A stretch of 64,000 nucleotides of DNA from Chloroflexota bacterium (GTDB lineage: Bacteria; Chloroflexota; UBA6077; CF-72): contig JAFAOS010000460.1 of assembly GCA_019247515.1 (NCBI GenBank), forward strand, positions 24,880 through 88,879. Direction: 5' to 3'. The translations under genes were made by a program, and so were the position numbers. Positions 35,766 to 55,254 of this stretch are shown here, one piece after another (the first letter of the stretch is position 1; each line of letters opens with the position of its first letter). The notes beneath the pieces were generated by a model. The model did not search any database and had not been told where the DNA came from. It was given only the letters and a program-made list of their open reading frames with translations.

Positions 35766-37494
35766 GGTGTACTCCTTCCGACTGAGCCTCGTGCGTGCCG
35801 TTGTGATGTGTCGACTCCGGTAGTGATTGATTGCCCATGGACGAGGCGGCGGCGGGTGCGAACCGCTCCTCATTCACGTATGTGTACTGGAAATAGTCTT
35901 CGCGATCAAAGCGCGACAGCAGGTCGCGGTGCTCGTCGTTCAGCACGACGCCGAGGACCGGCTGTGGAATGGTGTTGAGCGCTGCCAGCGCGGAGCGCAA
36001 GGTCGCTCTGCGGGTCCGACCCGCGCGTGCAACCAGCACCGAGCCGTGCGCCTCGTGCGCAAGCAGCAAGGTGTCCGCCAGCGAACCGACGTGGGCGCTG
36101 TCCACAATCACCGAGTCCCAGTCACGCTCCAGACGTTGCAGCACGTTCGCGATCGATTCCGTGTCGAACAAATCGCTCGAGCGGCCGGCCAGCGTGCCAG
36201 CCGGCAGGATCCACAGGTTGTCGATACCACTGGCCGTGACACCCGCAATCTCGCCATCAATTTCTCCGTTTCTGTGGCGCGCCAGGGCCAGCGCGTCTGA
36301 AAACCCGCTCGTATTCGACACCCCGAACCAGCGGTGGAGGGCCGGTCGGCGCAGGTTGCCATCGACGAGCACCACGCGCCGGCCAGCCTGCGCCTGGGCA
36401 ATGGCCAGGTTGCCGGCAACGAACGTCTTGCCTTCGCCCTCGACTCCACTGGTGACGACCAGCGTCTGGAGTCCCCAGGGCGGGGCTATCAGCTGCAGCG
36501 CGATGCGCAACGAGCGGATCGCTTCGGCGGCCGGCGAGATGTTGGCATCGGCCATTACCAGTGCTCGATGGTGGCGTCGACGCGGGAGGGGCCACATGCG
36601 CCTGCGAGCGTGGCGCAGTCGGCCAAGCAGTGGCAGCCCCGTCAGATTGATGGCGTCGGATGGCGTGCGGACCACGTCGGTCAGATGCTCGAGCACCACG
36701 ATCAGCGTCACCGCGACGCCAATCCCGCCCAGGAGCCCGAAGACCACCGCCTGAACCAGGGGTAACGCGTCGATCGGCCTGCCGGGAGTTGCCGAGTCGA
36801 GAATGACGGCCGTCTCGAAGCTGCTTTGAATCCGACTGATCTCGACCAGGAGATTCGTATGGCTGCTCTCCAGGCCGCTCAGGCGCTGGTCGAGCCCAGT
36901 CAGCTCGCTCAGACGGCTCAGGTCGCCGTGGGCGACGGCGTCGTCGAGCTTGTCGCGCTGATCCTGAAGTGGTGCGATCCGCGACTGGGTGTCGCTGGCC
37001 GACTGCTGCATCTCGGCCAGCTGGGCCTGGATGCCTGGCTGCGACTGCTGGCGCCGCTGGTTTTCGGCGATGAACACCTCGGCGATGTGCTGGGCGAGCT
37101 GCTGTGCGTCTGTGGGGTTGTCCCAGGTGACGCTGAGGTGCAGGATGTTGGTGTTCGGTACGAGCTGGGTGGAGATCGCGCCGCCGATGGCGTCAGGCGG
37201 CAGGTTGAGACCGAGCTGCTGGACCACAATTGCCCCAAACGCTCGACTGCGCAGCACTTCCTGGTACGACGCTGCCTGAGCTACGACCGGGCTCGAAGGG
37301 CTGACGCCTGAGTCAGCTGAGTAGGGCAGAAAGGAGCTGTTGGCGGCGGGATTGAGCTGCAGGCTCACCGTCGACTGGTAGCGCGTTGGCGTGGTCGATT
37401 CGAAGTAGTAGGCGATCGCCACGCCGGCCAGGCCGAGCAGTAGCACGAGCCACCACCGTCGGAGCAGCGTTTGGGAAAAGCCGATGGGATCCAT
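35752..37494 (-). CDS. Wzz-type chain-length determinant fused to BY-kinase (polysaccharide biosynthesis tyrosine autokinase)
   Basis: N-terminal Wzz TM region, Walker A-like TSGVEGEGKTFVAGNLAIAQAQAG, Walker A' VVLVDGNLRRPALHRWFG, C-terminal tyrosines YFQYTY. Confidence 0.88.
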   Translation of the reverse strand: MDPIGFSQTLLRRWWLVLLLGLAGVAIAYYFESTTPTRYQSTVSLQLNPAANSSFLPYSADSGVSPSSPVVAQAASYQEVLRSRAFGAIVVQQLGLNLPPDAIGGAISTQLVPNTNILHLSVTWDNPTDAQQLAQHIAEVFIAENQRRQQSQPGIQAQLAEMQQSASDTQSRIAPLQDQRDKLDDAVAHGDLSRLSELTGLDQRLSGLESSHTNLLVEISRIQSSFETAVILDSATPGRPIDALPLVQAVVFGLLGGIGVAVTLIVVLEHLTDVVRTPSDAINLTGLPLLGRLRHARRRMWPLPRRRHHRALVMADANISPAAEAIRSLRIALQLIAPPWGLQTLVVTSGVEGEGKTFVAGNLAIAQAQAGRRVVLVDGNLRRPALHRWFGVSNTSGFSDALALARHRNGEIDGEIAGVTASGIDNLWILPAGTLAGRSSDLFDTESIANVLQRLERDWDSVIVDSAHVGSLADTLLLAHEAHGSVLVARAGRTRRATLRSALAALNTIPQPVLGVVLNDEHRDLLSRFDREDYFQYTYVNEERFAPAAASSMGNQSLPESTHHNGTHEAQSEGVHHAGN

Positions 37495-37593
37495 GGGAGA
37501 GTGCGCCTCGATTTAGCGAGCGTTCAATCTTTGATCAGTTTTTGAGTAAGCCGTGGTGTGAGGTGTCCTCGAGGAGTTGGATTGGAGTGATGG

Positions 37594-39924
37594 ATGAACC
37601 GTTCTCGACTCCTTGCGACTCGTTTTGCGTACATGGCGCTCCTGTTCTGTCTTGGTCTCGCCTTCGCCGTGTTCAGCGTGGGGGCGGATACTGCCCAAGC
37701 TCAATCTAGTCAGGAAGAGTTTGTCGGTCCGTTCGGGTCGTGGCGGCAGGTCCAATGCGCGGGTGGGGACGACACGGCGCTGCTGCAGAACGAGCTGAAC
37801 TCTCTGGGACGGTCTGGTAGTCCGGTGTTGTACATCCGACCTGGCACCTGCCGCATCACGTCCACGCTGCACCTCGGTCAGGGTGCGGGCGGCGCTGACG
37901 GGGTACACGACGTCACAATTCTCGGGCAGTCGCCGGCCGACACGCGCATCGTGTGGGGCGGCCCCGCTGGGCGCGACCAGAAGATGTTCGAAGTCAAAGG
38001 CGTTGCCCAATCGCGATTCGGCCGCATGACATGGGACGGCGGCGATGCGGCCGACATCGTGTATTACGACGATTGGCCCAACGCGGGCAACTTTTTCCCG
38101 AGTGGCAACCGGCACGAAGACGAAGTGTTTCAGCATTTGTGGAGCGGCGGCGGAATCGCGTTTGACATCGGCGCCGCTGGCGCTGGCGGCTCGGAGTGGG
38201 AATACGTCCGCTGCAAGTTCATCGGGCCGATGGAGGCAGGTATTTACCTGTCGAATTTTAACGCCCTCGACCACTGGGTCTGGGACAGCCTCTTCCAGAA
38301 TGTGCAGGCGGGCATCACCAACTATCTGCCAGATCGTGGCGTGGGCGCCGGCGGTGCATGGGACGTCAGCCATTCGGTGTTTCTGAACAATGGTGATGAC
38401 CTGTCGATCGCCAACGCGGCCTTCTTCAGCTCGCGTTGGAACTACAGCCGCGGTTCGCAAACGCATGTGCACGGATATCCGATTGGCCCCGCCGCTAGCC
38501 CGTGGACCAGTCAGTCCGAGGTAATCATCGATCCTTCGTCGACCAACCCGGCGTTCACGCTCGGCACAAGTGGCCCTCTGGGACTTTTCGATGACACGAT
38601 CCGGAATGGCCCCTCTGGAACGGCTGCGTCGCTCGTCGAAGGCTACGAATACCCAGCTGGTGGCGACTTGTGGTCGTTTCACAACACGCTGAGCGCGACG
38701 GGCGCCCCGTATACCGTTGGCGATCCGCCCGGCTCTGGTCGAATGCAAGTGGGCTCTGCAGACCGCACTGGACAGGCGATCACCGATCCGGGCCCGCCAC
38801 AGCTGCCCACGACTCCGCCGATGAGCAAGCTGCCGGTGCTCAACGTGCACAGGGGAGACATCGCCGGCGCCCTCGCCCAGGCAGGCAACAACCACGTTGT
38901 CGTCCACATCCCGTACGGCACGTACCATGTCGCTCAGACGCTCGAAGTGGGGCCGAACACCATACTCACGGGCGACGGTTTCGATGCGACCGTGATCTCG
39001 AGCACCGCGGATCCAGTCCTGCACGTTGCCGGGCCGTCGCACGCCACGCTGCGGGACTTCAGCGTCACTGCCTTCGATGGGAGCACGCGACTTGGATCGG
39101 GCATCGCCATCGACAACGCTGACCAACCCGGCGGACTGGTGCACTCTGAAGACTGGATGAGCTCCAGGAACGACGTCGGCTGGGAGGTCACCAACCTGGC
39201 CAATACGGTTGTCGATTCTCTGGACAGTATGGCCGGTGAGAACAAGCATGCCGACGAAAATGCGCAGGTCGGTGCGGTCGACTACAAGGTCACTGCTGCC
39301 AGATTGCACGTCTTCAATGGCGCCGGGGCGAATAGTGACGTGGAGTACGAGGTCCATCAGGGTGAGCTGGTTGCCGAAGGCATGTTTTTCCAGGGGGAGG
39401 CGGACGGCGGCACGCCTGAGCGGCTCGTCGCTGCCGGGTCGAGCGGCACGCTGGTGCTGGATACAAACCTGTTTGCGTCCGATGGTGGGATCGTGGACAC
39501 CACTTCCTTTCGTGGATTGCTCACGCTGGTGAATACGAGCGAGGGTCACAACACACCGGATGGCCGGGCTCCGGCGCGCGCGTTCGGGCCGAACTCCTTG
39601 ATCCTGGGCTACGAGTACGGCTGGACCGACGACGCCACTCCGCCGCGCTTCACTCGTCCACCGTATGCCTTGTTGCTGGGTCGACACAATACAGGTCAGG
39701 GTGGAACGGACCTGATAAATTCGCAGGCGCAGGTCGGCGGAGTCGGCAACCTGTCTCAATTCATTCAGCAACATCTTGCGCCGCTAGGGGCTGCCAGGCC
39801 CGTCAGACTCCAGTCGGCCGCCGATGGCGTCACGAATGTCCACCTTTATCGCGTTGGCGCTTCGCTCGTGCGATCGGGTATTCGAGTGCTCGGCTCTGCC
39901 GCGGACACGACCGGCCAACGTTGA
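37594..39924 (+). CDS. secreted pectate-lyase-like (right-handed beta-helix) protein, copy A
   Basis: Signal peptide ending AQAQSSQ; SPVLYIRPGTCRITSTLHLG; HVVVHIPYGTYHVAQTLEVGPNTILTGDGFDAT; full-length similarity to 48957..51227. Confidence 0.75.
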   Translation: MNRSRLLATRFAYMALLFCLGLAFAVFSVGADTAQAQSSQEEFVGPFGSWRQVQCAGGDDTALLQNELNSLGRSGSPVLYIRPGTCRITSTLHLGQGAGGADGVHDVTILGQSPADTRIVWGGPAGRDQKMFEVKGVAQSRFGRMTWDGGDAADIVYYDDWPNAGNFFPSGNRHEDEVFQHLWSGGGIAFDIGAAGAGGSEWEYVRCKFIGPMEAGIYLSNFNALDHWVWDSLFQNVQAGITNYLPDRGVGAGGAWDVSHSVFLNNGDDLSIANAAFFSSRWNYSRGSQTHVHGYPIGPAASPWTSQSEVIIDPSSTNPAFTLGTSGPLGLFDDTIRNGPSGTAASLVEGYEYPAGGDLWSFHNTLSATGAPYTVGDPPGSGRMQVGSADRTGQAITDPGPPQLPTTPPMSKLPVLNVHRGDIAGALAQAGNNHVVVHIPYGTYHVAQTLEVGPNTILTGDGFDATVISSTADPVLHVAGPSHATLRDFSVTAFDGSTRLGSGIAIDNADQPGGLVHSEDWMSSRNDVGWEVTNLANTVVDSLDSMAGENKHADENAQVGAVDYKVTAARLHVFNGAGANSDVEYEVHQGELVAEGMFFQGEADGGTPERLVAAGSSGTLVLDTNLFASDGGIVDTTSFRGLLTLVNTSEGHNTPDGRAPARAFGPNSLILGYEYGWTDDATPPRFTRPPYALLLGRHNTGQGGTDLINSQAQVGGVGNLSQFIQQHLAPLGAARPVRLQSAADGVTNVHLYRVGASLVRSGIRVLGSAADTTGQR

Positions 39925-40769
39925 CGCTTTCTGACTTCGTACAGTTTGGAGTCGATGAGCCAGCGGTACCACCATCCTTGCAAGAAATGAAAGATGAGAC
40001 CTTCGGTGCCGTCGAGAAAGCCGAGCCGCAGGACGTAGCGATAGAACCAGTACAGCAGGACACGACCGAACAAGGGGGCGCGGCCATACATCCGATCGCG
40101 TAGCCAACGTCGTCGCTCAATCGGAGTGCCGAAAAGCTTCGGGTGCACGCGATCCGGCGTGCCGGCCACGACCTCATGACGCGTAATCTCCTGCGCCTCG
40201 AGCTCAGCCCAGCGGGAGTGGCGCATGCTCCACGTCGTCAGGTCTGAGGTCAGGACGTCGATGTAGTCGTGTCGCAGCCGGGCCACGCGGCCGCGCACGA
40301 TGAAATGCTGATCGTACAGCCGGTCTTCGCAGCTACCCAGGCGCCTGCGAAAGAGACGCAGGTGATAGGCGGGATAATGTCCACCGTGTTTCATCCAACG
40401 TCCGAGAAAGATGGTGCGCTTGCGGAGTAAGAAGCCGTCCGCCTCGACGGGCGCGCCGGCCAACACCTGGTTGATCTCAGAGACGAGCTCCGCCGTGAGC
40501 CGCTCATCGGCATCCAGGTGCAGCACCCACTCCGCATCCGCGGGCAGGTGGGCCTGGGCCCAATTGCGCTGTGCGGCGTAATTGTCGAAGGCGTGGTGCA
40601 ATACCGTAGCCCCCGCTGCTTCGGCGAGCGCAAGGGTGCAGTCCGTGCTTCCGGAATCCACCACGAAGAGCTTGCAATCCAGACCGCGAAGACTCGCCAG
40701 GCAGGCCGGCAGGTTGTCCTGCTCGTTGTATGTCAACACGACCGCCGCCAGCGGCGCCGAGCTGCGCAT
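39846..40769 (-). CDS. glycosyltransferase family 2
   Basis: LAAVVLTYNEQDNLPACLASLRGLDCKLFVVDSGSTDCTLALAE...WVLHLDADERLT. Confidence 0.92.
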   Translation of the reverse strand: MRSSAPLAAVVLTYNEQDNLPACLASLRGLDCKLFVVDSGSTDCTLALAEAAGATVLHHAFDNYAAQRNWAQAHLPADAEWVLHLDADERLTAELVSEINQVLAGAPVEADGFLLRKRTIFLGRWMKHGGHYPAYHLRLFRRRLGSCEDRLYDQHFIVRGRVARLRHDYIDVLTSDLTTWSMRHSRWAELEAQEITRHEVVAGTPDRVHPKLFGTPIERRRWLRDRMYGRAPLFGRVLLYWFYRYVLRLGFLDGTEGLIFHFLQGWWYRWLIDSKLYEVRKRQRWPVVSAAEPSTRIPDRTSEAPTR

Positions 40770-41908
40770 CAAGCCGCCTCCAGGAGCGACTGATACAGGC
40801 GCTGGACCTCGCCCGCGACCGAGCTCCACCTGAAGGCCTGCATAGCCAGGCTCCGACCTGCCTGACCGCGGCGCTCTCGTTCGCAACGATTGCGCAGGAT
40901 GCACGTAAGTCTGTCGCGCAGGATGGCTCGATCCAGCGGCACCACCCATCCAGCATTGGCGGCGGCGATTTCATCCGCGAGATTGACATGCGTACTCACC
41001 AGGACGGGCGTGCCGCACGCCAGCGCCTCGGCGACCACCAGTCCGAAGTTCTCCTGGTGCGAAGGCAACGCAAGCACGGCTGCTCCAGCCAGCGCGGCGG
41101 CTTTGGCCTGGCCCTGGACCCAACCGCGGAAAACCACACGGTGATGCGCATCCAGACGTGCGACGTGCGCGCGCAAGGACGCGACGTACTCGGGTTCCCC
41201 GTCGCCCGCGACGACCAGGTTCCATTCAGGCAGACGTTCGGACACCTCCAGGAAAACGTCGACGAGGGATTCAATGCCCTTTTTCGGATGCAAGCGACCC
41301 AGGACCAGGACATAGGGTGGTTCGCCGCGCGAGCGCGTGGTCCGGAAGAGTGTTTCGTCGACACCCAGCGGGATGACAACTCCGCGCTGCAGGTCGAGTG
41401 CCGTTTCCGCGAGTCGCTTCTCCGAGGCCGTGGTGTAGTGCATGGCGGCCGCGCCGCGGAGCATCCGCTGGACTCCGAGGTGCCATAGCAAGCGTTTGCG
41501 AAGTGGCTTCTGCCGGAGGCTCCATGGGTCCAGCGTGCCAAGTGGCCGGACGACGTACGGCACGCCTCGGCGCCGACATGCGCTCGATGCCGCCAGGCAG
41601 GCGTGTGAGAAGACGGCGTGCACGTGCACGACGTCGAACTCGGCGACGTTTTCCGCCAGCCAGCTTGCGAGCGGGCGCGAATACTTGTAGGCCTCGCTCA
41701 ACTGGCGCGGGAAAAACACCGTCGGCACACCCGACCACTCCATGCGCCTCCCGTGCGGCACCGGCAGCCGAGCGGGACCATCGGCGTCGGTGGTCGCGAT
41801 CTGAACTGCCACCCCACGGTTCTGGAGCGACGTGCACATGCCGACGACGGCCGAGCTGGGGCCACCGTATCGCGGTGCAATCGACGGGATTACGTGCAGC
41901 ACACGCAT
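40769..41908 (-). CDS. glycosyltransferase family 4
   Basis: MRVLHVIPSIAPRYGGPSSAVVGM...; VLGRLHPKKGIESLVDVF; NFGLVVAEALACGTPVLVS. Confidence 0.92.
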   Translation of the reverse strand: MRVLHVIPSIAPRYGGPSSAVVGMCTSLQNRGVAVQIATTDADGPARLPVPHGRRMEWSGVPTVFFPRQLSEAYKYSRPLASWLAENVAEFDVVHVHAVFSHACLAASSACRRRGVPYVVRPLGTLDPWSLRQKPLRKRLLWHLGVQRMLRGAAAMHYTTASEKRLAETALDLQRGVVIPLGVDETLFRTTRSRGEPPYVLVLGRLHPKKGIESLVDVFLEVSERLPEWNLVVAGDGEPEYVASLRAHVARLDAHHRVVFRGWVQGQAKAAALAGAAVLALPSHQENFGLVVAEALACGTPVLVSTHVNLADEIAAANAGWVVPLDRAILRDRLTCILRNRCERERRGQAGRSLAMQAFRWSSVAGEVQRLYQSLLEAA

Positions 41909-42795
41909 CACAATCCGTTTGGTCCGCGCGCTTCGAACGTGAGGAAGCTGCCGAAGCGATCCAGCACGTGTCGCGCGCGACGATCGCCGACCATCGGCAA
42001 GACGGCTTCGCGGACTCCACGTGGCAGAGGCAAGACTTCGAGCTTCTGGCCCGTGACGCGGGTCTTTGCGCTGGCGAAGAACGCGAGCAGAAAGTCTCGC
42101 CAGGTTTCGGCCGAATAGAAACGCGCCATGTAGCCGTCTGTGCCACGCCACAACGCTTCGTCGACGGAGTGGCGGCCTATTCCGCCATGCAAGACCCAGT
42201 CGCGGACGACCGAAACCGCGGCGTTGATCGAGTCGCGATGGTACACCATGCCTGCAAACGTGCCGTCTGGTCGCAACCAGTCGTGGACGTTGCGCACGAT
42301 CACACCCGATCGTGAGGAGTGGTGGATGACGCCCCAGCTCCAGACGAAGTCGAATGCTCGGTCGAACTCGGGCAGCGGCTGTTCGGCGTCCCACTGGAAG
42401 AACCGGCCCGCAAGTCCCTTCAGCGCAAAGCGGCGCTCGGTGCGGGATATGGCGGCGGCCGTCAGGTCGATACCGGTCATGTGCGCGCCCGCCCGCGCCA
42501 GCAGCTCGGCGTGCAGTCCCGATCCGACGCCAATCTCCAGCACTTGTTTGCCGCGCAATGCCGCGTACGGCAAGAAGCGATCGAACGGGTCGCGGTCGGT
42601 GGCGTAAAACGCCGCGTTAGCCAGGAAGCGCCGATCCTGCTCGTCGAACCAGGCACTCGCATCCCAGGCGGACGGCACTCGACGCCGCCAGTCGTAGGTC
42701 ATCGGGGTCGCTTCCCACCACGTCCGATTACGAGTCTGCACGACGTCCAGGGGCTCGTCCTGGTCACGCTTGGGACCGTGACGCCCTGTCAGCAT
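41908..42795 (-). CDS. class I SAM-dependent methyltransferase
   Basis: GKQVLEIGVGSGLHAELLARAGAHMTGIDLTAAAI. Confidence 0.88.
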   Translation of the reverse strand: MLTGRHGPKRDQDEPLDVVQTRNRTWWEATPMTYDWRRRVPSAWDASAWFDEQDRRFLANAAFYATDRDPFDRFLPYAALRGKQVLEIGVGSGLHAELLARAGAHMTGIDLTAAAISRTERRFALKGLAGRFFQWDAEQPLPEFDRAFDFVWSWGVIHHSSRSGVIVRNVHDWLRPDGTFAGMVYHRDSINAAVSVVRDWVLHGGIGRHSVDEALWRGTDGYMARFYSAETWRDFLLAFFASAKTRVTGQKLEVLPLPRGVREAVLPMVGDRRARHVLDRFGSFLTFEARGPNGL

Positions 42796-43913
42796 TCGAG
42801 GCTCCGTTGCAGAGAGGCCATCAATCGCGTCCGAAAGTGGTCGTATGTGAAGTGATCGGCCAGGCGCTGACGACCCGCCGCGCCAAGTTGCATCTGGAGG
42901 TCCGGTTCCGACAGGACTCGGACGATTGCCTGACTCAACTGGCCGATGTTGTCCGGGTCCACGAGCAGCGCCGCATCGCCGAGAATCTCTGGCGCAGCGT
43001 CGCGCGCGCCGCCGATGACCGGTCGCCCGCGGGCCATCGCTTCGAGGAACGTCAGGCCGAAGCCTTCCCACTTGCTGGGCATCACGTACGCGGCGCAGCT
43101 CTGGTAGCAGTCGCGGAGCATATGATCCGAAACCGAGCCGAAGAAGCGGACGTGGGACTTCACGCCAAGCTCTTCGCTGAGTTCCTCGAGCTCCGGCTGG
43201 AGGTCGCCTTCGCCGACGATCCAGTACGTCGCGGACGGAACCGATTCGAGGACGCGCGGCAGAGCGCGCAGCACTGCGTGTTGGCCTTTGCTGGCTTCGG
43301 AACGCCACAAGCGGGAGACGGTGAGCAGCGCGTGGGTGTCAACCATTCGAGTCTCCCTCTCCTCCTGGGAGAGGGCGCGGGGTGAGGGTTGCATTTCCGT
43401 CAGGGCCGGATCGGGGCAACTGTACGTCACATCCACCCGTCTCGGGTCGAGCCGGTTGCTGTGTACAGCTCTTTGCGCGGTGTAGTGGCTGATCGAGAGC
43501 ACCCGCTGGGAGCGGCGCAGCGCCAGTCTTCGAATGAACGGCAACCTGATCCACGCGTCGACACCGTAAATCACGGTGACGCGTTTCGACCGGCCAGGAC
43601 GCGCCCCAGCCGTCAACAGCAACGGCGCAAGGTTGACGTGACCGGCCAGCACCACGTCGTAGACTTCGCGATGCAGCGCGCGCAGTACGGACTGTATCAG
43701 CAGGCGTCGGTCGCCACCGCACCCGAGGTACGATCGCCCCCTCTTTCCGAAATAACATGGATCCGCGCTGGATTGGCGATCGTCCAGCAGTGAAATCACG
43801 TCGACCGCCTGGACGCGTACATCCTCCGTCAATGCCTTCAGGGTCAGTCTGCAGTGACGCGCGATGCCCCCGGGCGGCCCGAAGAGATCCAGTGCCAGCA
43901 GTAAGACCTTCAT
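42789..43913 (-). CDS. glycosyltransferase family 4 containing an in-frame palindromic repeat
   Basis: LLLALDLFGPPGGIARHCR; LLTVSRLWRSEASKGQH; GFGLTFLEAMARGRPVIGG. Confidence 0.9.
   Translation of the reverse strand: MKVLLLALDLFGPPGGIARHCRLTLKALTEDVRVQAVDVISLLDDRQSSADPCYFGKRGRSYLGCGGDRRLLIQSVLRALHREVYDVVLAGHVNLAPLLLTAGARPGRSKRVTVIYGVDAWIRLPFIRRLALRRSQRVLSISHYTAQRAVHSNRLDPRRVDVTYSCPDPALTEMQPSPRALSQEERETRMVDTHALLTVSRLWRSEASKGQHAVLRALPRVLESVPSATYWIVGEGDLQPELEELSEELGVKSHVRFFGSVSDHMLRDCYQSCAAYVMPSKWEGFGLTFLEAMARGRPVIGGARDAAPEILGDAALLVDPDNIGQLSQAIVRVLSEPDLQMQLGAAGRQRLADHFTYDHFRTRLMASLQRSLEC
43355..43388. repeat. palindromic repeat copy inside a coding sequence
   Basis: CCCTCTCCTCCTGGGAGAGGGCGCGGGGTGAGGG; differs from 17519-17551 by two substitutions and one indel by eye. 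Confidence 0.85.
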
Positions 43914-45283
43914 CGCAGCCGACCGTTCACCACCACGGGGCCTGGCTGCCTGGCTGTGGGTCGCACGACGACTCGCTGGCTTCTCGAAGATTGTGCTCGA
44001 GACCTGGCAATCAGAGAATTGACCGCGAGCGTCACGACAATTGCCGCCCCGACGCTCGACGTCAACTCGACGATCGAGCCATTGACGGCGAGCAGGCTCA
44101 GCCCCGGCAGATACCACTGAACGAATTTCGGCCACTCCCCGCGCCGCAGGTGTGCGGCCGCCGCGGCGTCGACGCGCGCAAGCACAGCGCCCAGCAACAC
44201 GAACCAGACGACGACCCCAATTGTTCCGAAGCTGATATATGACTCCATGATGTTGCCAACGCCAACGGTCGTCGTCGGGTCGAACTGGATGCCGGTGTAT
44301 TGTGTCACCAGAGCCGCGCCGCCGACGACGATAGGTTTCGATGGCCAGATGGCTCGCGGCACAAGACTGACCAGGCCATCGATCAGCGTCTTGCCATATG
44401 CCAGCTGGGCGAGGCCCTGCTCCAGGTACTCAACTGCCGCGCCGACCTGAGCGTTTTGATCGAGGCGTTCGGTAATTCGGGCGAGGTGGTCCGGGTTGTA
44501 AATGTTGAACCATTCGAGCGTGCTGATGGTTTGATACAGTGTGTTCACGCGCACCGCGATTGGTGCTCCTCCCCAGACAATCTCGCGAATTCCGTTTCGA
44601 TCGCGCATGTACGTGACGTACAACGACAGTCCGACATACATCAGCACGAGCGCGGCGGCGAATACTCGCCAGCGCGGCCGATAGAAACTCGCGACCAGAC
44701 ACAGCACCGCAATGGCGGCGGTCGTGCCATAGCCCAGGAAGCCCTGAGTGAGAATCGTCAACAACGGCAGACATAGCGTGGCAGTCAGCCACCAGCCAAA
44801 CGCCACTGACCTGGCGCGCGACCATGCGCACCAGCATCCCAACGCCAGCCCGGCGACCGCGAGATTCCATCCCTGGGACACAAGAGCGCTGCCACTCGGA
44901 ATCCGATTGGCCACCGGCACCAGCACGATGAAACACACGAGCCCGAGAACCAGGTAGACGCGCGGTAAGCGTGCATCGCCGGCGTCGCGCACCTCCGGGG
45001 TACTGGCGCGCCGCGGTGCCAATAGCAGTACGCCAACGGCGAAACTGACGATCGCAAAGGTGCTCTGGCGAAAGCCGTCGAAGATTTCCTGCACGTTCGG
45101 CGGGTCGTACCATGGCAGAAGGGCGATCGCGGCCCCTATCCAGTAGGCCATGCCAAAATTCACGAGAAACGCGGTCACGAGTCCGACGCCCCCCGCTTGA
45201 CGGGCCGTGCGAACGACCGAAATCAGGACCGCGGCGGCCGCCCAGGCGATGACCCATCCCACCATGTCGTTTGCGGTGCTCAT
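43910..45283 (-). CDS. O-antigen/exopolysaccharide polymerase-like polytopic membrane protein
   Basis: Many TM helices; SLVPRAIWPSKPIVVGGAALVTQYTG near the C-terminal TM block; position in glycan locus. Confidence 0.7.
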   Translation of the reverse strand: MSTANDMVGWVIAWAAAAVLISVVRTARQAGGVGLVTAFLVNFGMAYWIGAAIALLPWYDPPNVQEIFDGFRQSTFAIVSFAVGVLLLAPRRASTPEVRDAGDARLPRVYLVLGLVCFIVLVPVANRIPSGSALVSQGWNLAVAGLALGCWCAWSRARSVAFGWWLTATLCLPLLTILTQGFLGYGTTAAIAVLCLVASFYRPRWRVFAAALVLMYVGLSLYVTYMRDRNGIREIVWGGAPIAVRVNTLYQTISTLEWFNIYNPDHLARITERLDQNAQVGAAVEYLEQGLAQLAYGKTLIDGLVSLVPRAIWPSKPIVVGGAALVTQYTGIQFDPTTTVGVGNIMESYISFGTIGVVVWFVLLGAVLARVDAAAAAHLRRGEWPKFVQWYLPGLSLLAVNGSIVELTSSVGAAIVVTLAVNSLIARSRAQSSRSQRVVVRPTARQPGPVVVNGRLR

Positions 45284-45326
45284 TGCGGGACCGTCACGCG
45301 CCTGACGCCATCAGCATCGGAGGGAG

Positions 45327-46274
45327 TCACGCTTTTCGCGGCTTGCTCGCCAGCGCTCGCAAGTGCTGCGCTGCCCCAAAACGCGGCGACACGTACGCGA
45401 ACGGAATGCCCAGCACCGGTGCTCCTTTGTAGACGAGCGTCATGAGTGTTCTGAGAGGACGACCTTTCGGGATAGGGGCGCCCCCGCCATACGCATTCGC
45501 GGACAACCCGCCATTCAGCGCACGCTTGCGCAGCAGGAAGTTGCGTGCGCCGGCAAGCATCGTCAACGGGAAATCGAAATCGCCTTCACCGGTCCACACT
45601 CTATCGACCTCGAGTCCTGCGCGTTCCATCGCCCAGGCGAGCGCCCGCGGGCTGTAAAGGCGGACATGGTCGACAGGCGCGTACTGGGGCCAGTACGAAT
45701 GGAGGATTCGGGCTTCGTAACTCGCAACGTTGGGGCACGACACCCAGACACGGCCTCCGTTAGCAAGCAGCGCGCGTGTGCCACGGAGAAATTCGATCGG
45801 TCTGGGGACGTGTTCTATGACATTGTTGGAGAAGATAATATCGTACGTGCGCTCGCCGAAACTTTCGCGAGATAGACTGCCAGCAATTAATTCGACATCC
45901 GACACGTGTTGAACACGCGACAGCGCCGATTCGTCCACGTCAAAGGCCGTGCAGCGTAGCCCGAGTCTGTGCGCGGCTTCGAGGACCTCTCCGTTACCCG
46001 GACCGATCTCGAGAAACCGCTCACCAGAGGAGTGCGGCAGTTCGGCAAACAGTTTCATGTATTCGAGGACACTCGCCTCGAACGACCAGCCTCGGAACTC
46101 CAGTTTATCCCGATAATGCGTCAGGTCGAACGAGAGCGTTTCCGTGGACTCCGACAGTTCGACCCAGCGCAGGTCACAACGGCGGCAGTGGTTGAACATC
46201 CGATCGGGGACGCGCACAGGTCGCGCCCCGCCTTTCGGCTCCGAACAGACCGGACACTCTGCCACCGAGCGCAT
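45327..46274 (-). CDS. class I SAM-dependent methyltransferase with N-terminal Cys cluster
   Basis: CPVCSEPK...CRRCDLRW; GERFLEIGPGNGEVLEAAHRLGLRCTAFDVDESAL. Confidence 0.88.
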   Translation of the reverse strand: MRSVAECPVCSEPKGGARPVRVPDRMFNHCRRCDLRWVELSESTETLSFDLTHYRDKLEFRGWSFEASVLEYMKLFAELPHSSGERFLEIGPGNGEVLEAAHRLGLRCTAFDVDESALSRVQHVSDVELIAGSLSRESFGERTYDIIFSNNVIEHVPRPIEFLRGTRALLANGGRVWVSCPNVASYEARILHSYWPQYAPVDHVRLYSPRALAWAMERAGLEVDRVWTGEGDFDFPLTMLAGARNFLLRKRALNGGLSANAYGGGAPIPKGRPLRTLMTLVYKGAPVLGIPFAYVSPRFGAAQHLRALASKPRKA

Positions 46275-48169
46275 CAGAATCCGTTGCGCTCCAACCAATC
46301 TTCCAACACGATGAGCACCCACACTCGCGACCACGACGTCTGCGGTCGGTTGTCAAGGAATGCTTCCCACATCGCTTTCAGACGCGCGGCCCGAAAAATG
46401 CCGCGACCGCCTAGCCGCTGCGGACCCAACCGCTCCTCACAGAAGCCTCTGAGCTCGCCCCGCATCCATCGTGCGAGTGGCAATGTAAAGCCCTGCTTGG
46501 GACGCTGCGTGATGGTTGACGGCAGCCGGTCACCCAGGCTCTCCACGAGCAGTGGCTTCGGTCTCCCATTTGAGCGTTTGTGCGCGTCGGGCAGCGAGAC
46601 GACGTATTCGGCCAGGACGTGGTCGAGTAGTGGAACTCGCACCTCGAGCGCGTGGGCCATGGCCAGTTGATCCGTGTCTCGCAACAAGACGTCGTGCATA
46701 TATGTCCGAGCTTCGGCGTACGAGACACAGCCCAGGACATCCTGGCGGTGCCCGTTGGAGAACGCCGCCCTGAGCATTGGCACGTACGGGTCCGCCCAGT
46801 CCTTGCTGTGCTCCGCCCAGCCAGGCTCCAGGATCGCGGTCCGTTGCTCGGGCAGCAGCACCTGGCGTAGTGGCGCGTACAGACTCGCCAGGTCGCCGTC
46901 GCTGGCGGCCAGCGACGCACGCTTTCTCGCGACAATTGACGACCCGCCAGCCGTCTGCAAGCTCCTCCCCACCAGTCGTCGCACCGGCCTTGGAAGACTT
47001 AGCCAGGCCTGCAACCGCCTGGACGCCAATCGACCGAACGAAGGGTAGCCTCCGAAAAGCTCGTCGCCGCCGAGTCCAGAGAGCGCGACTCTGATGCCGG
47101 CGGCACTGACCGCGCGCGCCACCACATAGGTGTTGATGCCGTCCCCAGTGGGCTGGTCCATCGCCTCGAGAGCCTCTGGCAATTGTTCGAGGAGCTGAGT
47201 TTCGCTCAGTCGGATCGGCGTGTGCTCGGTCTCAAACCTCCGCGCGATTATCTCCGCGTATTCCGTCTCGTCGTATTCATGCTCGGCGAAACCCACGGAG
47301 AAAGTGCGAGGCTTTTCGCCAGCATCCCGCACAAGCGCCACAATCGCACTGGAGTCGATCCCACCGGAGAGGAAAACAGCGACGGGGACGTCACTCACCA
47401 TGTGCAGCGCCGCGCTGTCGTGCAGCAGGTCTGCGACGCGTCCGCGACTCATCGCTGAATCGTCGACGGACCGAGGTGCGTCAAACAGATCCCAGTAGCG
47501 TTGTTGAGTTACTTCGCCATCACGAGCCACGCGCATCCAGGTTCCGGGCGGAAGCATGCGAACATCTTGAATCAGCGTAGCGGCGGCGGGTGCCGACTGG
47601 TATGTCAGGTAACCGAGAACCCCATTGGCGTCCAATCGCCGCGACACACGCCCACTGGCGAGCAGCGCTCGGACCTCAGAGGCGAACGTGAGGCTGCCAT
47701 CCGCCGCACGACAGTAGTACAGGGGCTTGATCCCGAGCCGATCGCGTGCAACGAAGAGCTCGTGGCGGCGACTGTCCCAGATCGCCAGCGCGAACATGCC
47801 GCGCAACCGCTGGAGACAGTCCGCTCCCCACCGTGCGTATGCGCGGAGGATTACTTCCGTATCGGACTGCGAGCGCCACCCGTCAGGGCCCAGCTCCGCT
47901 CGGACCGCGGCGAAGTTGTAGATCTCGCCGTTAAAGGTGATGTGGAGTGTTCCGTCGGAATCTGACATAGGCTGGCTGCCTGTCGAGGACAGATCGATAA
48001 TCGCGAGACGCGTGTGTCCCAGAGCCACTACTGGCCCGGCGTCAGACGCCACGCGTACGCCCGTCCCATCCGGCCCGCGGTGCGCCAGGGCCACGACCAT
48101 GCGCGATACGGCATTGCGCACCGGCTCTGCATCGCCCGTTACCTGAAGAACACCAGCAATGCCACACAT
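46274..48169 (-). CDS. asnB: asparagine synthase (glutamine-hydrolysing)-like amidotransferase
   Basis: MCGIAGVLQV with Cys at position 2; LAHRGPDGTGVR; FNGEIYNFAAVRAEL; VFLSGGIDSSAIVALVRD. Confidence 0.92.
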   Translation of the reverse strand: MCGIAGVLQVTGDAEPVRNAVSRMVVALAHRGPDGTGVRVASDAGPVVALGHTRLAIIDLSSTGSQPMSDSDGTLHITFNGEIYNFAAVRAELGPDGWRSQSDTEVILRAYARWGADCLQRLRGMFALAIWDSRRHELFVARDRLGIKPLYYCRAADGSLTFASEVRALLASGRVSRRLDANGVLGYLTYQSAPAAATLIQDVRMLPPGTWMRVARDGEVTQQRYWDLFDAPRSVDDSAMSRGRVADLLHDSAALHMVSDVPVAVFLSGGIDSSAIVALVRDAGEKPRTFSVGFAEHEYDETEYAEIIARRFETEHTPIRLSETQLLEQLPEALEAMDQPTGDGINTYVVARAVSAAGIRVALSGLGGDELFGGYPSFGRLASRRLQAWLSLPRPVRRLVGRSLQTAGGSSIVARKRASLAASDGDLASLYAPLRQVLLPEQRTAILEPGWAEHSKDWADPYVPMLRAAFSNGHRQDVLGCVSYAEARTYMHDVLLRDTDQLAMAHALEVRVPLLDHVLAEYVVSLPDAHKRSNGRPKPLLVESLGDRLPSTITQRPKQGFTLPLARWMRGELRGFCEERLGPQRLGGRGIFRAARLKAMWEAFLDNRPQTSWSRVWVLIVLEDWLERNGF

Positions 48170-48189
48170 ATGTCAGCCTTGCAAGCTGT

Positions 48190-48960
48190 TCACAGCCACA
48201 CACGTGGCGCTACCCTGCGCAGCACCGCTCTCCCAAGATTCACCGCCCGTTGGCGGGGACTGTCGTACGACTTGTGCCAGTGTGCCGCGTACCCGACGGG
48301 TGGTGCATTGATAGGCCACCGCAAAATCGCGCCGGGCGCGCCTTGAAACGGACTCAGCGCGTTATAGAAGAATGCTTCGAGGTGCCCGGTCTCGTTCATC
48401 AAAGTGGTGCCGCGGCCGAGCACGTTGGCCCTGTAGAAGCCGGTAGAGAACAGCATCAACTGAGTCGTCACGTACGGCTCGCTATGGCCGGCGTGGAGAT
48501 AGCCTCGCCGTGAATCGACGGCGAACAGGTAATTTTCTGGCAACCTGTCCAGCAGGCGCGAGATGCTCGGGAACCGCAGTCGCCCATTGGCCTTGATGAA
48601 GTACAGGCTATCGGCGAACACGGCGCTGTCCTGAACCACCGTCTCGAGCATGTCCAACTCGGCAAGTCCATAATTCATCTCGGCTGGATACGACTTTCTC
48701 GGTGCGCGCAGAAACTCTACCTCTCTGTCAAACGGATTTTCCTGCGCGACAATCGCTCGAAACGTGTCCAGTGAGTAGCCGGAGTTCTCCACCAGGACCA
48801 CATTTCCGAGCCGCGCGTCCTCTACGCCGAGCCAGAATCGCAAACCGGCCTCGTAATCGCGTAGCCGAGTCGCAGGCTGCGAGCGATAAACACGGAACTG
48901 TCCAGCCGTAGGATCGACGCATGCCGTCAGAACGATCGCGTGGGTTCGGGACGGCGTCAA
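48190..48960 (-). CDS. glycosyltransferase-like protein of uncertain family
   Basis: YFIKANGRLRFPS motif reminiscent of KxNGRY-type LPS/capsule transferases; TTG start overlapping the preceding stop. Confidence 0.5.
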   Translation of the reverse strand: MTPSRTHAIVLTACVDPTAGQFRVYRSQPATRLRDYEAGLRFWLGVEDARLGNVVLVENSGYSLDTFRAIVAQENPFDREVEFLRAPRKSYPAEMNYGLAELDMLETVVQDSAVFADSLYFIKANGRLRFPSISRLLDRLPENYLFAVDSRRGYLHAGHSEPYVTTQLMLFSTGFYRANVLGRGTTLMNETGHLEAFFYNALSPFQGAPGAILRWPINAPPVGYAAHWHKSYDSPRQRAVNLGRAVLRRVAPRVWL

Positions 48961-51227
48961 TGTGTCCCCTGGGTCCCGAGGATCTGCAGGCCACTGCGCA
49001 GCATCTCGCCACCGACCCGCGAGAGGCGGACATCGGAGACATCCGCGGGCCGCGCGGTCAATGGTGTTGGTACCGTGCTTGCCAATGGAGCGAGGTGCTC
49101 GCGTTGGAATTGCGCCTGGTCGTCAACCCCCGCGGCCTGCTCCGCGACCGACACGCTGCCGCCGCCCTGGTTCTGACGCGGCAGCCACATGGCGTACGGC
49201 CCGCTGGTAAATGTCGGCAAGGCTGAGTCGGTGGGCAGCCAGCCGAAGACGTAGCCCAGCAGCAGGGTGTTCGGACCAAACACGCGCGAGTTCGGTGGCA
49301 TCGGATTGCCGGATGCGCCAATGTCGCCGATACCGATCAGGGTCAGGCTGCCGCTGAAACTGCTGGTATCCAGTAAACCGGGGTTGCCCGCCAGACGGCC
49401 TGTATCCAGTATCAGCGTCCCACTGCTGCCCGGCGCGATGTAGGTCGTGGGGATGGCCGATTCGTAATACATCGTCTGAGCCACGAGCTCACCGCCGTGC
49501 AATTCATAGATCTCGTCGCTCGTCGCACCGGCGCCGTTGAAGATGTGCACGCGCGCATTGGTGACCCTGTAGTCCACGCTCGGACTCGCGGCTCCGGTGT
49601 CCAGGTGGCTGTTGGTCCCGGCGCCGGTATCCAAGAGGTCGACCAGTGTGCTCTGCAGATCCGAAACCTGGATGCCGACCTCGTCGTGCGCGCCGATCCA
49701 CTGCTCCGAATGGATCAAGCCACCCGGCTGATCGACATTGTCGATCACAATGCCCGAGGCGTTGCGTTGCCCTGACTGCTGGCTGCCGCCGTTGAGTGAG
49801 AAGTCTCGGAGCACCGCGTGTGAAGGCCCCGTCAGATGCAGAATAGGGTCGGCGCCGGCCGAGCGGAGGTCGGTCGCCCCATAGCCATCTCCCGTCAGAA
49901 CGACGTTCGGCCCAACCTCGAGGGTGCGCGTGATCTGGTAGGTGCCATACGGAACGTGCACGACTGCGCGGGACGAGCCGGCGGATGCCAGCGCCGCCGC
50001 GATGTCACCGTTCTGGACTTCGATCACTGCCGCCGAGCTGGCGGGCGGCGCGGGTGGCAGAGCGAGTGGACCCGGGTCTTGAATCGCCGCGTCGCCCTGG
50101 TCGTCACCGCCGATGTGCACTCTGCCCGATGCGCCGGTTGTGTATGGCGGCGCATTGGCGCTGCTGAAGCGGTTGCCGGCTGCCCACAGGTCACCACCGG
50201 GTTGCGCGGCGTATCCTTCGTTGACCGACACACGTCCGTCACCGGCGTTGTCCCTGATTGTCGAGTCGAGCAGACCGAAGGGACCGACGCTGCCAAAGCT
50301 GTAGCTCGTGTGCACCGGATCGATGACGGTTTCTCCCTGAGCTGTCCACGCGCTGGGCGCGTTGCCAATAGGATAGCTGAGCACATGCTGCCCTGATCCA
50401 ACCGAGTAGTTCCAACGCGAGCTGAAAAAGCCAGTATTGGCGATCGCCATGTCCGCGACCTGACTGTTGAGGAAATTTGAGCGGTTCACCGCAAACCAGC
50501 CAGCGCCGTTTTCGCTGTTGCTGATGATGTTCGTCACGCCATAGCTGACGTTTTTGAACTCTGAATCCCAGATCCAGTAGTCGCCCACGTTGAAGTTCTT
50601 GAGCAGGACGCCAGCCGCCATCGGACCCAGAAAGTGACAGCGGATCCATTCTGTTTCGGAGTCTCCAATACCCGAATCCCCGGCGCGTACCGCCACGCCG
50701 TCGGGTGCGAGATCTGAGAAAACCTCGTCCTCGTGGCGATTGGCAGCTGAGTAATACATACCCGTATTCGGTGTTTGGGACAGCACATACACCGCCCGAG
50801 CAGACCCACCGCCATCCCACGTGAGGCGACCATAGCGACTGTGCCCAACTCCGTCGACAGCCAGCATCGTGCCACCGGCCGGCCCGGCCCACACAATGCG
50901 AGTTGTGCCGGGATCGGCGCCGAGAATCGTGATCTGGTGTTTGCTGACGCCAGTACTCGTGCCCAGCCTCAACGTCGAGGTGATGCGGCACGTGCCGGGC
51001 GCGATGTACAGGACAGGACTCTGGCCAGGGAGCCCTACATTGTTCAGCGCCGTCTGGAGCAGATTCGTGTCGTCAGTTCCCGAGCACTGAATTTCCGTCC
51101 AGCTCGGGAACGGTCCAACAAACTCCTCGGCGGGCGCTGGTGTCTGTCCTGAAGCAAGTCCCGAACCGAGCAGGAGCGCGGCAACCACTGTCGTAAAGAT
51201 GCAAACAAGCCCTGTCGTCAGCCTCAT
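48957..51227 (-). CDS. secreted pectate-lyase-like (right-handed beta-helix) protein, copy B
   Basis: Signal peptide; SPVLYIAPGTCRITSTLRLG; AVVHVPYGTYQITRTLEVGPNVVLTGDGYGAT; full-length similarity to 37594..39924. Confidence 0.75.
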   Translation of the reverse strand: MRLTTGLVCIFTTVVAALLLGSGLASGQTPAPAEEFVGPFPSWTEIQCSGTDDTNLLQTALNNVGLPGQSPVLYIAPGTCRITSTLRLGTSTGVSKHQITILGADPGTTRIVWAGPAGGTMLAVDGVGHSRYGRLTWDGGGSARAVYVLSQTPNTGMYYSAANRHEDEVFSDLAPDGVAVRAGDSGIGDSETEWIRCHFLGPMAAGVLLKNFNVGDYWIWDSEFKNVSYGVTNIISNSENGAGWFAVNRSNFLNSQVADMAIANTGFFSSRWNYSVGSGQHVLSYPIGNAPSAWTAQGETVIDPVHTSYSFGSVGPFGLLDSTIRDNAGDGRVSVNEGYAAQPGGDLWAAGNRFSSANAPPYTTGASGRVHIGGDDQGDAAIQDPGPLALPPAPPASSAAVIEVQNGDIAAALASAGSSRAVVHVPYGTYQITRTLEVGPNVVLTGDGYGATDLRSAGADPILHLTGPSHAVLRDFSLNGGSQQSGQRNASGIVIDNVDQPGGLIHSEQWIGAHDEVGIQVSDLQSTLVDLLDTGAGTNSHLDTGAASPSVDYRVTNARVHIFNGAGATSDEIYELHGGELVAQTMYYESAIPTTYIAPGSSGTLILDTGRLAGNPGLLDTSSFSGSLTLIGIGDIGASGNPMPPNSRVFGPNTLLLGYVFGWLPTDSALPTFTSGPYAMWLPRQNQGGGSVSVAEQAAGVDDQAQFQREHLAPLASTVPTPLTARPADVSDVRLSRVGGEMLRSGLQILGTQGTH

Positions 51228-52429: not shown

Positions 52430-54225
52430 AGCTTACCGTAGGTGTCGGAGTACGCTTCGCGGAACGTGTAGCCGGACACGGCTCGCGGCTGCTCGTCGCC
52501 CCGACCGTACACGTAGTTGACCCGGCGTTGGCCCAACTCCTGATTCAGGTCCAGTTTTCGAAACTCTTCGAGCATGCTGTCGATCTGCGATTCGGGAAGC
52601 CGCCAGTTGTCCGTACCGAGGAACAGAAAGTACGTGTAGGTCAGGCCCAGCGGCGGATCACCGTGTTGGACGTCCTGCGCCATTAGTGCGCGGACATCGT
52701 CCTCACTATGCCCCAACAGCTTCATGGCAATCAGGAATCGCTCGCCTATTTCTTGACTCGACGCAGAGGTCCGCTCGCCATTCGGCACGAACACTCGGTC
52801 CTGGGTGTAGACCGGGATCAGGTCGTTGACGTCCCTTGCAGTGGCCAGGACCACGTCGTCGAGATGCGTATTGGCATTCAGCCAGTCGAACAACAGGCGG
52901 TGTTGCGGCGTGTACTCGTGCGCAGCGGCGACCGCGTTGGTGACCGTGACCTGGCGGAAGCCGCCGAGGCCGAGCAATATCCCTCCCCCCACCAGCAAGG
53001 CGGCCACGCCGAATCTGCGCGTGACCAGCGGTCGGCTCGCCAGCGCGAACACGGCGATGGTCAGAAATGGCTGAAATAGACGATTGGGAAAGTGCAACAT
53101 GGACTCGACGTTGAATCCGACGAGCACTTCCATGTTGAGCGCGGCGAGGGCGGCGGCGAAAACAGCCGAAAAATACAGAAGCACTCGCCGCCGCGTCATG
53201 CTATGCGGCGGCCCGAACCGTATGTAGACTGCCGCGCACACCGCGAACACCAGCGTGGCGACGATCGTGTACGCAATCTTGGCCGGCGGCGGCACGTGTC
53301 CAAGCTCGCTGGTGTGTCGCGCGAGGACATTTGCAAGTCCGGGGTAGCGCGTGTCTTCGAGCAGCGACCACCAGAACGGGATAGTGCACAGCCACGTGAC
53401 GACGTTGGTCAACCACAGGACCCGTCGTCGGTCGCGGTCGAACAGCAGCAGTGCCAGACACGCGCCCAGCCACACCGGCCAGTAATAGAGATAGGTGTAA
53501 AACAGGAGCGCACCGAGCGCGCCGGCGACAACGGCGAGGAGTGGTCGGTTGGTGCGCAGCGTGCGCCAGAGTAACCAGAGGCTGGCCACGAGAAGAGTGA
53601 ACGAGACCTCGGGGTGGACGTCCCGCGAGAACTCCAGCGGCTGGATGATTCCGCCCGGATCGTAGCCGGTCGGCTGCAGGATGGGACTGAACAGGTTGCG
53701 CGGTCCAAACGAGACGAGCAGGACCGTCAGGCTGCCGACGAGCGCCAGCGCCCGCCGCCGAGTGATATCGAATAGCAGCGCGTACACGATGAGCAGCGCA
53801 ACTGGTGGCAGGACGAAGTCCGCGAGGATGAATGCCCGATCGACACCGCCGAGCGCCGCGGCGGCGCCCGCCAGGATGACATACGGCGCCATCGTGGTCG
53901 GCACCGGCACGTGTTCGTCTTCGTAGACGTCGGTGTCGTACGGCGGCGCCAGGTGGCGGAGCGTGTAATTGACATACGCGGCATAGCTCGAAGTCTCGTC
54001 GTAGGTCAGCGCGCTGACGCCCGACACCGCGAACGGCGTGTACACCCGCTCCGGGCCCAGGAGCGCCGGAGTCAAGAGGTGCGGCAGACCAAACAGGAGG
54101 CTCACGACGCAGGTCGTCAACACCACCAGCACAGTGGCACTTCTGCGACGGATGGGTATCGGTTCGACATTCGAGGCCTCAGTGATGGCGGTCTGAGCCG
54201 ATCGGATCGAGCCGGCGGCGATCAC
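52402..54225 (-). CDS. polytopic membrane protein, GT-C glycosyltransferase-like
   Basis: About 10+ TM segments and a C-terminal soluble tail; position in glycan locus. Confidence 0.55.
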   Translation of the reverse strand: MIAAGSIRSAQTAITEASNVEPIPIRRRSATVLVVLTTCVVSLLFGLPHLLTPALLGPERVYTPFAVSGVSALTYDETSSYAAYVNYTLRHLAPPYDTDVYEDEHVPVPTTMAPYVILAGAAAALGGVDRAFILADFVLPPVALLIVYALLFDITRRRALALVGSLTVLLVSFGPRNLFSPILQPTGYDPGGIIQPLEFSRDVHPEVSFTLLVASLWLLWRTLRTNRPLLAVVAGALGALLFYTYLYYWPVWLGACLALLLFDRDRRRVLWLTNVVTWLCTIPFWWSLLEDTRYPGLANVLARHTSELGHVPPPAKIAYTIVATLVFAVCAAVYIRFGPPHSMTRRRVLLYFSAVFAAALAALNMEVLVGFNVESMLHFPNRLFQPFLTIAVFALASRPLVTRRFGVAALLVGGGILLGLGGFRQVTVTNAVAAAHEYTPQHRLLFDWLNANTHLDDVVLATARDVNDLIPVYTQDRVFVPNGERTSASSQEIGERFLIAMKLLGHSEDDVRALMAQDVQHGDPPLGLTYTYFLFLGTDNWRLPESQIDSMLEEFRKLDLNQELGQRRVNYVYGRGDEQPRAVSGYTFREAYSDTYGKLWQVIPSAN

Positions 54226-55232
54226 GCGGCCACTCTCAGCATGGACTGCAGACGGTCGTCATACGTGTGGCCGCCACTCGCAATGCGACACTGGACAGCG
54301 GTGCCCAGGCGCGCCCGTTCCTCGGGCGCATCGAGTAGCTGCCGCAGCCGCATCAGCATCTCGTCGATCGTCTGGAAGTAGACGACAGCTTCTCCATTGG
54401 CGCCGAACAGCTCGCGGTGCTCGGCCGTGTCTTCCACCAGCATGCACGCCCCGATGGCCGCCGCCTCGTAGGAGCGCATCACCTGTCCGTCCCGGTTGGC
54501 GCGTCGCACCAGGCAGAGGTTCACTCTGGCCTGGGACGTCGCCTTGCGCAGCGTGGCGATGTCGCCGTATCCGCGGTGACAGGCGCGCGTCTCCGGGTAT
54601 CGACTCCAGTAGTCGCCATACACGGCCACCTTCAGGCCAGCCTGAGCCAGCGCGGTGATGAATGGCACGCGCTCGCGGTCTGCGCCGCCGACGAACAACA
54701 CGTCCGAGGCCAGTCGGCCTGCGTCGGCCTGGTCAGGCCGCTCGGGAAAGAACAGGTCGCGATCGAAGCCGAATGGTAGGTACGTGACGCGCCTGCAGCC
54801 GTGCTCCACCAGGTCACCCAGGTTCGCGCGCCGCACGGAAAAGACGCGGTCGTACTGTCGCAGCGCGGCCAACGACCATCTCGCGCGCAGGGTTGGATTC
54901 CATGGATCGTCGGTCAAGTAGTTGAGACGGCAAATGCCCATTCGGCCGAGAGCAGCGAGTGCGTCGGCATTGAGCGGCACGAGTCCGGTCGCCAGGACCC
55001 AGCGCGGGCGGAGGCGCCGGCACGTTTCGACGATCAGGCGGCTGCAGGTATTCAAGCGCGCGGGTCGGTGTCCGCCGAGCCGCCAGTTGACAAAGCGCGA
55101 CCAGCGCGGCGCCGCGGCGGCCGCGTGGACATCCACAAAATGACAGGTCAGCCGCAAGCGCTCCGCGGCGCGCAGCAGACTGGCCCCGACATTGGTCCCG
55201 CCTTGCTGCCCGACAATCAGCAGCGTACCCAT
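54222..55232 (-). CDS. CgeB-like glycosyltransferase
   Basis: VLATGLVPLNADALAALGRMGICRLNYLTDDPWNP...VKVAVYGDYWSRYPE-type region and RSYEAAAIGACMLVEDTAEHRELFG. Confidence 0.8.
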   Translation of the reverse strand: MGTLLIVGQQGGTNVGASLLRAAERLRLTCHFVDVHAAAAAPRWSRFVNWRLGGHRPARLNTCSRLIVETCRRLRPRWVLATGLVPLNADALAALGRMGICRLNYLTDDPWNPTLRARWSLAALRQYDRVFSVRRANLGDLVEHGCRRVTYLPFGFDRDLFFPERPDQADAGRLASDVLFVGGADRERVPFITALAQAGLKVAVYGDYWSRYPETRACHRGYGDIATLRKATSQARVNLCLVRRANRDGQVMRSYEAAAIGACMLVEDTAEHRELFGANGEAVVYFQTIDEMLMRLRQLLDAPEERARLGTAVQCRIASGGHTYDDRLQSMLRVAA

Positions 55233-55254
55233 CAAGCCGTTCGTCACGTCTGTT

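Follow-up and report, generated by a model that had tools for sequence, protein, structure and literature searches.

Two full-length paralogous proteins, P0001 and P0002, are encoded within an EPS locus of the window (the whole stretch of Chloroflexota DNA that was analysed, 64,000 nucleotides). A glycan-active role for the pair is well supported by the gene neighbourhoods and the fold. On balance, we lean somewhat towards secreted enzymes that work extracellularly on the polymer of their own Wzy-type locus, cutting or processing it. The two genes and the domains of P0001 are located as follows:

37594..39924, plus strand: P0001 (copy 1), 776 aa; signal peptide and tandem right-handed β-helix
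48957..51227, minus strand: P0002 (copy 2), 756 aa; signal peptide and tandem right-handed β-helix
37714..38799, plus strand: N-terminal β-helix domain, P0001 residues 41-402, from the AlphaFold model
38806..39888, plus strand: C-terminal β-helix domain, P0001 residues 405-765, homologous to the N-terminal domain (hhalign)

Translation of both frames at these coordinates gives no internal stops. P0001 and P0002 are identical at 373 of 764 columns (49%; 640 bits, E given as 0, BLASTP), a similarity far above chance that makes them full-length paralogues. This agrees with the earlier note on this DNA, and all of the motifs quoted there are present. The opposite orientation at about 9 kb that it described is also borne out, with a gap of 9,032 bp (39925-48956). 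Signal peptides of typical form were read by eye at both N-termini. A whole-genome search of the source genome, a draft assembly in 579 contigs with 93% completeness and 6% contamination, recovered only these two copies of the family, both in the EPS locus, and no further PF12708 match at E 0.001. An antisense frame of 753 aa (37513-39774, minus strand) spans nearly all of P0001. It was rejected as a true gene because the plus strand is the one conserved in the orthologue and the relatives, and it is probably a by-product of high GC.

The surrounding locus comprises a Wzz-kinase, a Wzy, an amidotransferase and at least nine glycosyltransferases (GTs) or methyltransferases. Its main features are:

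33531..35873, minus strand: HlyD/RND-type membrane-fusion protein; its counterpart sits between both β-helix genes in sister genome G002
35752..37494, minus strand: Wzz-like chain-length/tyrosine autokinase fusion, divergent from P0001
39846..40949, minus strand: family 2 glycosyltransferase (GT2), convergent with P0001
40769..42394, minus strand: GT4 glycosyltransferase
42789..44135, minus strand: GT4 glycosyltransferase
43910..45283, minus strand: Wzy-like repeat-unit polymerase, a weak match to the exosortase-Y-associated Wzy family
46274..48169, minus strand: asparagine-synthase-like amidotransferase, 41-43% identical to a Bacteroidota EPS-operon gene upstream of the β-helix gene
48190..48960, minus strand: 256-aa ORF with no family match, between P0002 and the amidotransferase; 4-bp overlap with P0002
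51224..52429, minus strand: GT4 glycosyltransferase upstream of P0002; 4-bp overlap
54222..55280, minus strand: glycosyltransferase (Glyco_trans_1_2), 29-31% identical to a Bacteroidota EPS-operon gene

P0002 overlaps its neighbour by 4 bp on each side, the GT4 gene upstream and the 48190-48960 ORF downstream, and is therefore embedded in the minus-strand operon. The Wzz/tyrosine-kinase gene and P0001 point away from each other across a 99-bp gap, and the P0001 3´ end overlaps that of the GT2 gene at 39846-40949 by 79 bp. The arrangement noted before, with one copy inside a GT operon and the other convergent with it, is thus confirmed. The signal peptides, the AlphaFold model and the neighbouring EPS genes likewise uphold the description of secreted, paired β-helix proteins within a glycan locus. 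Two minus-strand ORFs of the locus, 52402-54225 (607 aa) and 61263-62894 (543 aa), have no Pfam or NCBIfam match; the 607-aa ORF looks like a multi-pass membrane protein.

AlphaFold models mature P0001 as two right-handed β-helices (pLDDT 84.5, pTM 0.91), and the P0002 N-domain modelled alone reaches pLDDT 86.5. The two halves of the protein are mutually homologous over 252 columns (hhalign probability 98.7, E 3.9e-16). In Foldseek searches with the whole protein, GH55 ranked first but superposed poorly over the full length (TM 0.43, rmsd 10.9 Å), and the nearest structure to the P0002 N-domain was RbmB (TM 0.48-0.69 by chain), with GH87 reaching 0.66. The likeness to RbmB, GH87 and GH55 is at the superfamily level only. 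Against a cut-off of 27, Pfam PF12708 (Pect-lyase_RHGA_epim) scores 35.2 bits in P0002 and 17.6 bits in P0001; it covers only the caps, and the family implies no single activity. The significant PDB profile matches are confined to the caps. A single-sequence PDB search gave no match, and a four-sequence profile gave one weak chance match only. A cap-free N-domain profile found no β-helix enzyme in the PDB, its sole match being a pentapeptide-repeat protein (E 0.03), which leaves the central region without a solved relative by sequence. By Pfam, NCBIfam and PDB comparison, the most fitting description of P0001 and P0002 is an uncharacterised family with the pectate-lyase-like β-helix fold. Clear membership in a characterised lyase or hydrolase family, which the earlier note had named as the result that would count against its reading, was looked for with Pfam, PDB profiles and Foldseek, and none was found. 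The previous remark that no catalytic family could be assigned holds in this sense and needs amending in another, as P0002 lies above the PF12708 cut-off.

The GH55 β-1,3-glucanases (PcLam55A 3eqn, CtLam55 5m5z and SacteLam55A) resemble the pair in their two tandem β-helices, similar total length, cap motif in both halves and conserved Glu in the C-domain. In contrast, they superpose poorly, at the values given above and with 12% identity. In GH55 the two domains form a rib cage and the active site lies where they meet; for this feature the comparison gave the same first-ranked but poor superposition. The GH55 signature consists of a general acid Glu that has Tyr at +3 and, 21-23 residues ahead of it, a Glu-His pair (PMC10637969). 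P0002 E589, which equals the GH55 acid only if the positions correspond, has in the family alignment neither the Tyr at +3 nor a conserved upstream Glu-His pair. No significant profile match to GH55 extends beyond the caps, and the cap-free profile finds no GH55. The same cap match is produced by a negative control for the GH55 signal, a generic GH28-related protein from a plasmid; it was reached from a PDB-derived cap fragment that returned only GH28-related plasmid proteins. The pair was not assigned to GH55, since the tandem architecture is present but the catalytic signature and the non-cap sequence similarity are absent. PL6 was rejected as a whole-protein match (rmsd 22-23 Å). PL6 lyases use a Lys/Arg catalytic pair and Ca2+ ligands. 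In the family alignment, no Lys is conserved in the groove region; R144 and R206 are conserved, and E201 lies five residues before R206.

Functional precedents are found in other EPS loci, where enzymes help to control how long the polymer is, how it is released and how the biofilm turns over; the well-studied cases are mostly from Proteobacteria. AlgL and PelA are encoded by glycan-cleaving genes inside EPS synthesis operons. PslG is a hydrolase co-transcribed with its EPS cluster (PMC9075953). The pair resembles these three in being encoded inside an EPS synthesis operon and differs from them in belonging to an unrelated family and fold. RbmB of Vibrio cholerae is a VPS polysaccharide lyase whose gene lies in an EPS/biofilm matrix cluster and whose substrate is the polymer of that cluster (PMC11637428). 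The N-domain of the pair has the single β-helix fold of RbmB (TM up to 0.69), and the EPS gene-cluster setting is shared. However, P0001 and P0002 contain two helices, compared with one of about 360 aa in RbmB, and the RbmB profile match is weak (E 5.7e-8 to 1.5e-6) and is gone once the cap is removed. Because GH87 is about as near to the N-domain, the RbmB fold match is not diagnostic.

The full-length family, searched for in 350 Chloroflexota genomes, was found in the window's genus only, in three genomes, one of which has a fragment; the remaining matches are short and mostly caps. Sister genome G002, of the same genus, has two copies on either side of a membrane-fusion gene and near a Wzz-kinase gene; counterparts of the Wzy, amidotransferase and GTs of the window lie on that contig too. 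The fragment, in G001, lies near a GT-like ORF (assigned by eye). On its contig this third homologue (L007:1-1776) comprises only the C-terminal half, followed by a Thr/Pro/Ser-rich linker and an extra domain. Distant full-length relatives, at about 24-33% identity, occur in Armatimonadota and other MAGs, in Bacteroidota and on IMG/VR contigs. P0001's own peptides gave no match against the genome contigs, but the alignment-based scan did find relatives. P0002 had no match among annotated phages and plasmids, and the literature search gave no relevant paper on this family for EPS or XrtY loci of Chloroflexota.

These relatives occupy three kinds of gene neighbourhood. In Chitinophagaceae-type Bacteroidota (the family of G350), a full-length copy is present in 17 of 299 genomes. 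An EPS-operon setting, with Wzy-like, amidotransferase, GT, GMD/GFS or CpsB-type genes, was observed in 11 of 18 loci of this type, the other 7 being outside EPS operons; the neighbours took their names from BLAST comparisons with the window and with other loci whose labels were in part assigned by eye. Several of the 11 have the amidotransferase gene directly upstream of the β-helix gene. In 8 of the 17 carrier genomes the Wzy and β-helix genes are no more than 10 kb apart, and only 50 of all 299 have this Wzy, a pairing that random placement would not give. The window amidotransferase is 41-43% identical to the gene immediately upstream of the β-helix gene in two of these loci (L023 and L025), and in another (L022) to the gene three places upstream. 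The Bacteroidota genomes have one or two matching places each, and the set includes a cultivable host, Flavihumibacter profundi. Two Bacteroidota homologues away from EPS loci are fused to cadherin-like repeats (L120:8760-12089, 1109 aa; L121:8736-14129, 1797 aa). In Armatimonadota-type genomes (G354-G358: L012, L014, L016, L019, L021), with 7-18 matching places each, the relatives sit in degradation loci beside GH2, GH95 and sulfatase genes. The IMG/VR relatives neighbour baseplate wedge, tail-fibre and head-maturation genes, and one phage relative is fused to a tail-collar domain. A survey of whether the family always occurs next to Wzz/GT clusters, as the earlier note had proposed, therefore gives a divided answer. 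The association was found in the 11 Chitinophagaceae-type loci and in G002, and fails in the other 7 loci, the degradation loci and the phage tails, so a restriction to glycan-synthesis loci is not borne out. One fold thus ties together EPS synthesis, glycan degradation and phage tails, and the PDB searches found no solved member.

In a tree of 46 full-length sequences, a single clade (100/100) unites the four Chloroflexota proteins, with the topology (G002_B,(P0002,(P0001,G002_A))). P0001 pairs with G002 copy A (SH-aLRT 90.3, bootstrap 97) and P0002 falls outside, which places the duplication before the split of the two species. A recent tandem duplication was rejected, as P0001 groups with the sister-genome copy and not with P0002. 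The main Bacteroidota EPS clade is well supported and distinct from the Chloroflexota clade, so the family probably entered EPS loci at least twice.

In P0001 numbering, nine N-domain residues, R144, D176, E201, R206, N223, D226, W230, D269 and S285, show conservation of at least 91% in the 46 sequences and are kept by both copies. The interval from D176 to E201, and again from E201 to D226, is 25 residues, close to one turn of the helix in that region, and on this spacing the three probably form one stacked column. In the C-domain, the position of P0002 E589 is Glu in 42 of 46 sequences and Asp in 3. P0001 has Gln at its equivalent, residue 600 (codon CAG at 39391-39393), the only Gln at that position. 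The pair may therefore consist of one active and one altered copy, and it offers a natural Glu/Gln paralogue pair for testing. The Chloroflexota clade keeps 49-53 of 67 family-conserved positions, compared with 57-67 in other members, so that activity may have changed or been lost; it also lacks the GAxGDG cap segment found elsewhere in the family. This clade has gained a cysteine pair, C55 and C86 of P0001, invariant in all four full-length members. The two residues probably form a disulfide that would stabilise the proteins.

A protein that works on polysaccharide is favoured by its secretion, its place in the operon, the repeated entry of the family into EPS loci and the hydrolases, sulfatases and phage tails found beside its relatives. 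The simplest role, and by analogy with RbmB and PslG the most likely one, is to cleave the polymer that the locus makes. P0001 and P0002 would be exported to act extracellularly on the EPS made by the surrounding locus, and cleavage would set its chain length, release it or remodel it. Labour might be divided, with P0002 (Glu589) as the active copy and P0001 (Gln600) as an altered or binding copy. A more specific scheme is unlikely as a whole: an undescribed tandem β-helix depolymerase family recruited independently in Chloroflexota and Bacteroidota, in which P0002 would cut the nascent or exported polymer, Gln600 P0001 would hold or cap the chain, and the pair would set length together with the Wzz-kinase. 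Hydrolase, lyase or epimerase chemistry would all be compatible with the data, and binding without cleavage is possible, especially for P0001. The earlier proposal of a polymer lyase/epimerase pair or a glycan-binding scaffold is thus supported as to a glycan-active role, by neighbourhoods and fold, with lyase, hydrolase, epimerase and binding functions all in play; its specificity for the product of the locus is an inference.

The strongest competitor is a non-catalytic surface scaffold, in which the pair would attach to the polymer, anchoring it to the surface of the cell or ordering it there. The drift of the Chloroflexota clade, the loss of the near-invariant Glu in P0001, the long C-terminal extension of the G001 homologue and the cadherin-type repeat fusions in Bacteroidota outside EPS loci all point this way. 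However, the N-domain acidic/Arg set is intact in P0001, P0002 and both G002 copies, and the degradation-locus relatives sit beside hydrolases and sulfatases, which makes a scaffold rather unlikely, if still to be taken seriously. An enzyme that modifies the polymer, for example a C5-epimerase that converts uronic acids in the completed chain, is improbable. The N-domain does match AlgE4/AlgE6 by fold and via the cap, and a sugar-nucleotide epimerase/dehydratase gene lies near the sister locus. The conserved set here is acidic/Arg/Asn and appears to differ from the Tyr/His/Lys set of AlgE, and a uronate pathway is not demonstrated in the window.

A scavenger of foreign polysaccharides that is merely located in the EPS locus would fit the multicopy Armatimonadota-type relatives in degradation loci. 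It is very improbable given the 4-bp overlaps of P0002 with both neighbours, the co-orientation of Chitinophagaceae-type homologues inside EPS operons and the confinement of the genome's two copies to the EPS locus. The least probable reading, a domesticated phage tail depolymerase possibly still used against phage or competitors, draws on the grouping of the Chloroflexota clade with phage and two Bacteroidota sequences (moderate support; SH-aLRT 89.8, bootstrap 91), but the branches within that grouping are deep and weakly supported. Tailspike β-helices (Sf6, CBA120 TSPs) match by fold, and full-length relatives lie in phage tail regions; the pair, unlike tailspikes, is cellular, with signal peptides and two helices per chain, and has EPS genes and no virion genes on either side, virion neighbours being found only in the IMG/VR relatives.

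Secreted enzymes acting on the locus's own polymer therefore remain the reading we prefer. As a separate observation, the amidotransferase at 46274-48169 is related to an XrtA/PEP-CTERM-type EPS family, and the module is common to two phyla.
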